Assembly (NCBI RefSeq): GCF_014876775.1
Contig: NZ_CP062310.1
Coordinates: 1,155,699-1,219,698, forward strand
Length of the DNA: 64,000 nt
DNA from: Infirmifilum lucidum
GTDB taxonomy: Archaea; Thermoproteota; Thermoprotei; Thermofilales; Thermofilaceae
Direction of reading: 5' to 3'
In this document: one piece after another, positions 35,044-37,793 of the stretch
Position numbering within the stretch: position 1 is the stretch's first letter
Layout of the letters: each line of letters begins with the position of its first letter
Program-made: the position numbers and the translations under genes
Notes under the pieces: model-generated
What the model saw: only the letters and a program-made list of their open reading frames with translations
Database searches by the model: none
Told to the model about the DNA's origin: nothing

Positions 35044-35400
35044 CTACGCTATCTTGAAGAGAGGGTCTCCCTGCTTCACGGCATCCCCCTCTTTAACGTA
35101 AACTTCCTCTACGCTCCCGCTCGCGTTCGACCTCACTTCCACGAGGGTCTTCATAGCCTCTATGACTGCAAGCACGTCTCCAGCCTTCACGGCATCTCCT
35201 TTCCTAGCCACAACCCTGGACACCCTACCCGTTATCGGCGAGGTTATGACGCCCCTGCCGAGCGGAGGCGCCTCGACTTTTCTGACGACGCCTGTCTGCA
35301 GAACAGAGAGGACAGTCTCCAGGGAGCTCTTACCCTCCTCCACCTCTACCTCCACTTCAAAAGCCTCCCCGTCCAGGATTACTAGGAACTTCTTCCTCAC
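35044..35400 (-). CDS. biotin carboxyl carrier protein of acyl-CoA carboxylase/decarboxylase
   Basis: 118 residues. An N-terminal segment and a flexible linker precede a biotinyl domain (~48-118) with the biotinylation site EAMKT, Lys84, 34 residues from the C-terminus, as is normal. The GTG start at 35400 follows 4 bases after the stop of the newly recognised small gene. It presents carboxy-biotin to the carboxyltransferase encoded at 35576-37120. No biotin carboxylase, biotin ligase or membrane beta-subunit gene is visible here. Confidence 0.92.
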   Translation of the reverse strand: MRKKFLVILDGEAFEVEVEVEEGKSSLETVLSVLQTGVVRKVEAPPLGRGVITSPITGRVSRVVARKGDAVKAGDVLAVIEAMKTLVEVRSNASGSVEEVYVKEGDAVKQGDPLFKIA

Positions 35401-35404
35401 GCGC

Positions 35405-35572
35405 TCACCCCTGGCACGTCACGTCCTCCTCGGCCGCATCCAGGAGCCGTGCAAGCCTCCACGCCCTAACGGGGTAACCGGGAGTTGCCGCCCGGCTCTT
35501 CTCCCGCCTCCTCCTAGAATGGATATAGGCTATCACTGCGGCTAGGACTACGGCGCGCTTCCCGGGCTCCAC
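35405..35572 (-). CDS. 55-residue small protein between carboxyltransferase and biotin carrier genes
   Basis: GTG at 35572, TGA at 35405-35407: 55 codons, 3 bases after the carboxyltransferase stop and 4 before the biotin carrier start. The peptide begins MEPGKRAVVLAAVIAYIHSR, a short hydrophobic helix, then a basic stretch and YPVRAWRLARLLDA. The pattern (short helix, basic linker, then a Trp-containing WRLARL segment) is like the small epsilon/OadG-type subunits of biotin-dependent carboxylases in archaea and actinobacteria. It is probably an assembly subunit. The tight packing and order make coding likely; family match is inferred. Confidence 0.65.
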   Translation of the reverse strand: MEPGKRAVVLAAVIAYIHSRRRREKSRAATPGYPVRAWRLARLLDAAEEDVTCQG

Positions 35573-35575
35573 GTC

Positions 35576-37120
35576 TTACACCGGGGGTACTCCGTGCTTG
35601 CGTGGGGGCCTGGGTTGCTTCTCGCGCTTGTCCAGGAGGAACAGGAGGAGCCTGTAAAGGTACGGCCTCGTCTCGCGGGGGAGTATTACGTCGTCCACAT
35701 ACCCCCTGCTTGCGGGCACGTACGGGTTCGCTATCTCGCTCCTGTACTTCTCGACAAAGACCTTAGCCATTTCCTCCGGGTTTTCAGCTTTCTCCAGCTC
35801 TTTCTTGTATATTATCTCTATCGCGCCCTCAGGCCCCATCACGGCTATCTCGGCGGTCGGCCATGCCAGCGCGAAGTCTGCTCCTAGGTGCTTGCTACCC
35901 ATGGCTATGTAGGCCCCACCGTACGCCTTCCTGAGGATAACCGTAATCTTGGGAACAGTGGCGTCGGCATAGGCGTAGATTATCTTGGCCCCATGCCTGA
36001 TAACCCCGTGGTGCTCCTGGTAGCTACCAGGCAGGAAACCCGGCACGTCGACGAAGGTCACTATGGGGAAGTTGAACGCGTCGCAGAACTGGACGAACCT
36101 GCTGATCTTGTCGGAGGAGTCTATGTCAAGGCTCCCGGCCATGACTGCGGGCTGGTTGGCTACGACGCAGACAGCGTGCCCGCCGAGCCTCGCGAAACCC
36201 ACGACCGCGTTTTGAGCAAAGTGCTGGTGGACTTCGAGGAAGCTCCCCTCATCGAACACGCGGAGAATAACTTCTCTGACGTCATATGGCTTCACGGGGT
36301 CGTCGGGGACGATGTCCTCGAGGGAAGGGTCTTCCCGAAGCGGGTCGTCACCTGTCTCAACGAGTGGAGGATCCTCTGTATTGTTGCTCGGGAGGTAGCT
36401 CAGGAGCCTCTTGATGATGGTTATAGCCTCGCGGTCGTCCTCTGCCACGAAGTGGGCGACGCCACTCCTCGACGCATGGACTCCTGCTCCCCCAAGCTCC
36501 TCCGGCGTTATTTCTTCCCCTATTGATGCCTTCACGACTTTAGGTCCTGTTATGAACATGTAACTCTTCCTGGTCATTATAATGAAGTCGGCTAGAGCAG
36601 GACTATACACAGCCCCCCCTGCACATGGGCCCATGATGGCGACGACCTGCGGGACAACCCCGCTCGCCATCACGTTCCTGTAGAAAATCTCCCCATAGCC
36701 CTTGAGGGAGTCAACGCCCTCCTGGATCCTCGCGCCGCCGCTGTCATTGAGACCTATAACAGGGATCCCCAGTTTCACTGCGAGCTCGATGATCCTTGCT
36801 ATCTTTGAGGCGTGCATCTCGCCGACGCTGCCACCCATAAAGGTGAAATCCTGGGCGTACACTGCCACACGCCTCCCGTCGACGCTTCCGAGACCTGCTA
36901 CAACGCCGTCTCCGTAGGCCTTCTTCGACTCCATCCCGAAGCCCACAGCCCTGTGCTGAACGTAACGTCCCAGGGGTACGAAGGAATCGGGATCCAACAA
37001 GAGGCCTAGTCTCTCGTGAACCGTGAGCCTTCCCTGCTCGCGGAGCTTTCTCGCGGCCTCCTCGCTGACGCTGTCCGTCAGCCTTCTCTTCTCAAGTAGC
37101 TCGCCGATCTTCCTATCCAT
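35576..37120 (-). CDS. carboxyltransferase subunit of propionyl/methylmalonyl-CoA carboxylase or decarboxylase
   Basis: 514 residues, usual length for PccB/MmdA. Two crotonase-like halves: the first with GYGEIFYRNVMASGVVPQV and GPCAGGAVYSPAL (about 140-175), the second with FVDVPGFLPGSYQEHHGVI and AYGGAYIAMGSKHLG (about 360-420), which form the two oxyanion holes. It moves CO2 between biotin and an acyl-CoA (propionyl- or methylmalonyl-CoA). First gene of a tight operon with the small protein and biotin carrier; whether it carboxylates or runs as a sodium-pumping decarboxylase cannot be read here. Confidence 0.92.
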   Translation of the reverse strand: MDRKIGELLEKRRLTDSVSEEAARKLREQGRLTVHERLGLLLDPDSFVPLGRYVQHRAVGFGMESKKAYGDGVVAGLGSVDGRRVAVYAQDFTFMGGSVGEMHASKIARIIELAVKLGIPVIGLNDSGGARIQEGVDSLKGYGEIFYRNVMASGVVPQVVAIMGPCAGGAVYSPALADFIIMTRKSYMFITGPKVVKASIGEEITPEELGGAGVHASRSGVAHFVAEDDREAITIIKRLLSYLPSNNTEDPPLVETGDDPLREDPSLEDIVPDDPVKPYDVREVILRVFDEGSFLEVHQHFAQNAVVGFARLGGHAVCVVANQPAVMAGSLDIDSSDKISRFVQFCDAFNFPIVTFVDVPGFLPGSYQEHHGVIRHGAKIIYAYADATVPKITVILRKAYGGAYIAMGSKHLGADFALAWPTAEIAVMGPEGAIEIIYKKELEKAENPEEMAKVFVEKYRSEIANPYVPASRGYVDDVILPRETRPYLYRLLLFLLDKREKQPRPPRKHGVPPV

Positions 37121-37137: not shown

Positions 37138-37704
37138 TTAAGAGAGCTCGAGAACCCATACTTCGAACTCTCTCCCGCCAACCCTAACTTTAACCTGCTC
37201 GGCCCCCTTCTTTATTGCTTCAAGCACCATGCCTATGTGCCTCTGAACTCTAGCTACAGACTCGAGCCAGTCCCCGTTAACCACGCGTAGAGTATGGGGG
37301 ACGCGCAGGGCCCGCAGGCTCCTCTCGTTGAGGCCGTCTAGGCCGTCAAAGCTAAAGGTTATACCACTCTTCAAGGGGAGCCTGCGTTTAGTCGTGGCCT
37401 TAAGACCCCTAACAGAGACGTAGGCAGTAGCGTTGGCTTTGACCTTTACACTCTCGCTGGCGTTGAACGCGGCCCAAGGCTCTACCTTCCTCCCATCTGC
37501 TACAATTTCAACGTCCCCGGTTACCGCCAGCAAGGCCTTCTCTCTCAGCGCCAGCTCCAGCTCGCCACCCCGCAGCTCGAACGCAGGGCTCGTAAGGCTG
37601 TTAAGCGAGAGCACATTAGACACAGCATGAGCAAACTTGTCACGTGATGCCAGCGGGTGTGGGGAGAGGAGGGCTCTATATGCTCTCTGTACTACGAACG
37701 CCAT
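37138..37704 (-). CDS. half-size AHS2/PxpC-like protein (carboxyltransferase-type domain)
   Basis: About 188 residues (ATG 37704; GTG or ATG at 37716 also possible). The segment LTSPAFELRGGELELALREK, then LLAVTGDVEIVADGRKVEPW and TAYVSVRG, follows the N-terminal half of the AHS2 fold found in 5-oxoprolinase subunit PxpC and allophanate/urea-amidolyase carboxyltransferases (usually ~300 residues). The second half is missing or much reduced and replaced by a helical segment. It lies 17 bases upstream of the carboxyltransferase gene on the same strand, so it may be an operon member. Function unknown. Confidence 0.55.
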   Translation of the reverse strand: MAFVVQRAYRALLSPHPLASRDKFAHAVSNVLSLNSLTSPAFELRGGELELALREKALLAVTGDVEIVADGRKVEPWAAFNASESVKVKANATAYVSVRGLKATTKRRLPLKSGITFSFDGLDGLNERSLRALRVPHTLRVVNGDWLESVARVQRHIGMVLEAIKKGAEQVKVRVGGREFEVWVLELS

Positions 37705-37793
37705 ACAGCTGTACACCGGCTGAGAAGCCTAATGCTCCACGTGGTATTTAAGCCTTGCCGATCTCTACTTCAACAATAGTCGAAAAATAGAAT

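Follow-up and report, generated by a model that had tools for sequence, protein, structure and literature searches.

The window analysed here, a 64,000-nucleotide stretch of the Infirmifilum lucidum genome, carries on its minus strand a 55-codon frame (the small ORF) between the genes for an acyl-CoA carboxyltransferase (CT) and a biotin carboxyl carrier protein, and sequence comparison with relatives confirms it as a genuine conserved gene. We think it quite probable that the product serves as a small, soluble component of the single acyl-CoA carboxylase in this organism, an enzyme that would be made up of biotin carboxylase (BC), carrier, CT and this peptide, with the peptide supplying an assembly helix and a hook. 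The small ORF (35405–35572, minus strand) is accordingly described below as a proposed free-standing helix-plus-hook assembly subunit of the gamma-tail or BT type, a proposal built on its conservation, its homology and the selection acting on it.

The 55-codon gene and its conservation

The frame runs from a GTG start at 35572 to a TGA stop that ends at 35405. The CT gene of its putative partner subunit (35576–37120, minus strand; PF01039, E = 6e-192) is the only such copy in the genome, and the carrier gene (35044–35400, minus strand; PF00364, E = 4e-19) begins with a GTG at 35400. These coordinates bear out the spacing given in an earlier note on this DNA, 3 bases after CT and 4 before the carrier, and the translation contains the layout it described, a hydrophobic helix followed by a basic linker and a WRLARLL motif. 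The helix core AVVLAAVIAYI (residues 7–17; 35522–35554, minus strand) is seen in the sequence and in the family alignment and lies within a helix predicted by AlphaFold2 to span residues 3–29; the Arg/Lys-rich linker occupies residues 18–37 (35462–35521, minus strand), and the Trp motif occupies residues 38–44 (35441–35461, minus strand). At 168 bases, the gene is longer than the usual minimum length of common gene callers.

The gap between CT and carrier genes is 67% G+C and a frame this long would stay open there by chance with P ~0.21, so the openness of the small ORF is by itself no evidence for a gene. CT relatives were gathered from 61 genomes and from a public genome collection; the relatives have one CT of this kind each, and the nearest named ones are from Thermofilum and other Thermofilales. 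A same-strand frame of 49–71 codons lies directly after CT in nearly all CT-bearing Thermofilales and in some other Thermoproteota (about 26 loci), and the carrier gene usually follows it directly. The encoded proteins share a hydrophobic helix, usually a basic linker, and the motif W-[RK]-[LI]-[AS]. In alignment A1, which contains 27 members of the family, W38 is the sole invariant residue, and the linker varies in both length and sequence. Within the genus, most differences fall at codon position 3, and pN/pS is 0.53 in frame; the shifted frames give 1.03 and 1.20, and the opposite strand 0.72–1.31. The earlier call for conservation of the frame beside homologous CT genes is answered by these figures and by a profile search that found the small gene beside CT in 22 of the 27 genomes of the order (E ≤ 1.7e-12).

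Among the five genomes missed by the profile, two (G018 and G021) are without a full CT, and G026 has a 62-codon version that we recognised by eye (locus L023). G020 has only a degenerate small ORF of 41 codons after CT (locus L028), and Thermofilum sp. NZ13 (G006) has neither the small gene nor a carrier gene after CT. That a close relative such as NZ13 has no frame, together with the chance of openness given above, could favour a spurious open frame in a G+C-rich spacer; however, the carrier gene is absent from the entire NZ13 assembly as well, and the conserved frame, the invariant Trp and the pN/pS value already contradict this explanation, which we regard as exceedingly improbable. The NZ13 gap may represent an insertion with deletion, or a misassembly.

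A few observations on these loci are recorded here in their own right. Right after the CT stop, NZ13 has a 1.6-kb stretch (L031, 6543–8200) with a 487-codon minus-strand ORF that contains a zinc-ribbon CPLCG...CTRCG and is TnpB-like by eye. On contig 15 of G020 (L242), a second biotin carrier gene adjoins BC. The gene upstream of CT in the window (37138–37716, minus strand; 192 aa) matches PF02626 (CT_A_B, PxpC/KipA-type carboxyltransferase), and longer versions of 313–315 aa occupy the equivalent place in two relatives.

Relationship to OadG tails and to other small subunits

Neither the Pfam and NCBIfam searches with the single sequence nor a profile search of the PDB yielded anything of use for the small ORF; none of the 27 family members matched PF04277 (OadG/OAD_gamma) or ACC_epsilon (PF13822), and the small-ORF proteins were likewise without a match to PCC_BT (PF18140). 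A weak Pfam match of residues 4–24 to VapB_antitoxin (PF09957; E = 0.0084) might indicate a VapB/RHH-like antitoxin, or some other unrelated small protein that lies in the operon by chance, but its 16.4 bits are below the gathering cut-off of 23.4, it is found in just two of the 27 members, and neither the strict linkage to CT nor the homology to OadG and BC tails described below fits such a protein. We rejected the VapB identity because the match is below cut-off and not common to the family, and the broader idea of an unrelated passenger is scarcely credible.

The relationship to OadG is visible in the sequences only at the level of the family. Eighteen bacterial OadG tails were collected through PF04277 and plasmid records, without use of the small-ORF profile, and compared with A1. 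The hhalign score was 28.3 (E = 2.4e-5), columns 2–51 being aligned with columns 1–52 and the Trp of WRLARLL with the Trp of the OadG tails, while none of 300 column-shuffled controls reached this score (mean 1.5, maximum 7.65). With an HMM of the OadG tails, the small ORFs score far higher than 1,773 decoy ORFs taken from their own loci (p = 6e-18), and they also outrank their shuffled versions; the window protein alone obtains only 2.2 bits. A comparison with archaeal tails gave E = 1e-9, a value that is circular because that set was partly picked with the small-ORF profile, and the bacterial OadG comparison supplies the independent figure. When the family profile was run over 200 genomes of the phylum, the first non-orthologous matches were mostly the ends of biotin-enzyme proteins, namely BC tails (G152, E = 5.8e-6, and G061), OadG proteins (G155 and G171) and a PycB tail (G182); one further match, in G125, seems to be unrelated.

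The OadG/MmdD tail (PF04277 proteins) and the small ORF thus have in common an Ala-rich hydrophobic helix, a linker and a Trp motif over about 50 colinear residues, and in many members the Trp motif is followed by [AS]-[GR]. The gene position is also the same, since in pump operons elsewhere (L042, L123, L124) a full OadG lies between CT and carrier, with OadB downstream. In the archaeal OadG of L042, a separate transmembrane segment precedes the tail helix and both are present, whereas the small ORF has no N-terminal transmembrane anchor, starts at the tail helix and has a hydrophobic run of only ~11 residues. This helix probably corresponds to the soluble Ala-rich helix of the OadG tail and not to a membrane helix. 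The earlier suggestion of an epsilon- or OadG-like small subunit is supported by the hhalign result, by the order CT–OadG–carrier and by the occurrence of the module on BC tails (below), and it stands as far as the C-terminal tail module is concerned; the small ORF is not a full OadG, given that it has no transmembrane anchor and that no OadB is encoded.

The same tail homology and pump-operon gene order could be read as signs of a true OadG-type subunit that holds the enzyme at the membrane in the manner of the sodium-pump decarboxylases. Besides the short hydrophobic run, which aligns with the soluble tail helix instead of the OadG transmembrane segment, the gene content speaks against this: OadB (PF03977; OadB/MmdB) is encoded by none of the 61 relatives, and a BC is present, its gene in I. 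lucidum lying ~11 kb past the window end. Genomes G155, G171 and G233, by comparison, encode full OadG and OadB and are without BC. Since OadB is absent and BC present, the Thermofilum enzyme should be an ATP-dependent carboxylase and not a sodium pump, and we consider the membrane-anchoring function very unlikely. Methylmalonyl-CoA mutase (PF01642) was found in none of the 27 Thermofilales genomes, despite the PCC/MmdA-like CT there, and a role in propionyl-CoA assimilation is doubtful for that reason.

Two small proteins can be likened to the small ORF by description only. Veillonella MmdE (epsilon), a soluble protein of ~55 residues, resembles the C-terminus of MmdD and stabilises the methylmalonyl-CoA decarboxylase complex, where it acts beside the membrane-bound MmdD and the MmdB pump. 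Hou and co-workers reportedly described in 2015 a small subunit of Haloferax mediterranei, PccX, coded with pccB and pccA. In a haloarchaeal plasmid CT locus, no small gene is annotated after CT. PycB-type carboxyltransferases (L095, L117) end in the same helix–Trp module after PF02436, where it replaces the carrier domain. Two further cases of a helix–linker–W layout, one downstream of CT in an actinobacterium (L047) and one closing a BC of an acidobacterial genome (L238, Vicinamibacterales), suggest that the module extends beyond archaea.

Complementarity with biotin carboxylase tails

A module with a structural role would be expected to occur one time in each enzyme. The BC tails of 23 genomes with the small gene (G020 being placed among them despite its degenerate small ORF) are without a hydrophobic helix, their best 12-mer hydropathy being ≤0.42, and close with a Trp motif that in most of them reads W-[RK]-x-x-[AS]-R; a Trp motif terminates all closed Thermofilales BC tails. 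In 15 other genomes the BC tail has the helix too (best 12-mer hydropathy ≥1.28), for example 'TVAIATAIASYMTKKAERTRTTSGWVLSGRMRYS'. The separation between the two groups is complete, and its p value of 3e-7 is phylogenetically structured, in that the genomes are not independent and reflect few events, one of them within the same class (G029). The group of 15 includes Methanomethylicota and Woesearchaeota, whose CT locus is without the small gene, and G029, a member of the same class as Thermofilum in which BC carries the module and CT has no small gene next to it. This absence was checked in G029, G231, G232, G234, G236 and the Woesearchaeota/Nanoarchaeota genomes only; for the remainder of the 15, the comparison covered the BC tails. 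As judged from these tails, the module took the form of a separate gene in Thermofilum and sits on BC in related archaea. To the earlier note these results add that the small ORF corresponds to an anchorless tail module, that its enzyme appears to be a carboxylase with no sodium pump attached to it, and that related archaea carry the module on BC.

The complementarity with BC-tail helices points to a structural role of the BT/PT type, and in this it speaks against a further possibility, that of a regulatory or stabilising peptide that binds CT without forming a BT-type domain, as actinobacterial epsilon might. Actinobacterial epsilon (PF13822: AccE, PccE) is, like the small ORF, small, coded beside CT and arranged as a helix followed by W, and it stimulates the carboxylase and is needed for its full activity (PMC13118682). 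It has an extra N-terminal strand and a different Trp context, and it gives no profile match with the small ORF. A 2011 survey noted that accE is needed by those acyl-CoA carboxylases that have no BT helix, and that a helix is predicted within accE as well (PMC3199775); if epsilon is such a helix, as it may be, the distinction disappears and this possibility merges with the assembly subunit that we prefer. As a separate explanation, we judge a purely regulatory epsilon-like peptide to be unlikely.

A possible assembly helix and hook

Known structures offer a model for the assembly subunit. In the two-subunit PC MfPC (5KS8), an Ala-rich C-terminal helix of BC (alpha) is buried in an eight-stranded barrel of the partner chains, and either A465R or deletion of the helix abolishes the holoenzyme (PMC5059739). 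The small ORF has in common with this alpha subunit an Ala-rich hydrophobic helix, which would likewise lie next to a small beta domain joining BC and CT, and archaeal BC tails have a helix and a Trp motif, as it does; in Thermofilum, unlike PC alpha, the helix is on a separate gene and BC keeps only the Trp motif. For the archaeal enzymes, longer BC tails and no more than two predicted strands were noted, and the architecture of archaeal two-subunit PC was stated to be unclear, as neither the strands nor the length of the helix agree with the bacterial model (PMC5059739). The CT subunit of geranyl-CoA carboxylase (GCC) buries Trp483, which ends the BT hook, between its two domains, and the hook Trp is mostly conserved in GCC and MCC (PMC4673880). 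For OadG, it has been proposed that the tail helix completes a PT-like domain of the alpha subunit, and the tail is required for binding that subunit (PMC7274780).

By analogy, the Ala/Val-rich helix of the small ORF would be buried in a small beta-barrel, a BT/PT-like domain built in part from the carrier's N-terminal hairpin, and the Trp motif that follows the basic linker would act as a hook on CT or on the BC/CT junction. In this way the peptide would hold carrier and BC on CT and let carboxybiotin shuttle between the active sites. We infer barrel formation, burial of the Trp in CT and an effect on activity from these analogies. Carrier residues 1–42 (35275–35400, minus strand), ahead of the biotinyl domain, are predicted by AlphaFold2 to form a beta-hairpin, a Leu-rich helix and a strand, and we propose that they may be the remaining part of the BT-type domain, a role drawn from PMC5059739 and PMC10148081. 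Against the barrel is the fact that one hairpin and one more strand are all that the carrier N-terminus supplies; because these strands are few, completing a barrel of eight strands would take several copies or additional partners.

Modelling bears on parts of this scheme. When the small ORF was fused to the carrier, AlphaFold2 gave block pLDDT values of 72–85 over residues 1–30, and both helix and hairpin had good pLDDT. Foldseek with this fusion returned carboxylases, with a two-subunit PC as top match, but the matches came mainly through the biotinyl domain, which drove the TM score of ~0.4, and we do not count them as proof. In a CT–small-ORF read-through, the small part had a pLDDT of about 29–67 and the peptide was not placed; with confidence this low, docking onto CT has no computational support. 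The BT domain of MCC/GCC/PCC alpha subunits has a central helix followed by a hook with Trp, a layout that the small ORF may share; it forms one continuous part of the alpha chain, and the similarity in sequence is marginal: the match to the MCC BT helix–hook sequences gave a weak E of 0.009, above all 150 shuffles and with Trp on Trp. A search for PCC_BT (PF18140) in 40 genomes from the phylum to which a Vicinamibacterales genome belongs found none, and the BT comparison rests on eight MCC-type sequences because there were no PCC BT sequences to add.

A wider interpretation, which in our view is as apt to be wrong as right, is that one helix–Trp docking module has been relocated several times between components of biotin-dependent enzymes as a common, swappable clamp. 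Its sites would be the end of BC, the end of PycB, the end of the membrane-anchored OadG, the inside of the BT domain and a stand-alone gene, and in Thermofilales and their relatives a gene of 50–70 residues would have taken the helix over from BC. Such a clamp would decide the fate of the CT–carrier core, as an ATP-driven carboxylase when the clamp is on BC or free, or as a Na+-pump decarboxylase when it is in the membrane. Apart from this interpretation, a conserved separate helix–hook gene would supply a missing part of how archaeal multi-subunit acyl-CoA/pyruvate carboxylases assemble, and it predicts one helix per enzyme, whatever gene carries it. Reconstituting a carboxylase of the Thermofilum type may then be unsuccessful when only BC, carrier and CT are combined.
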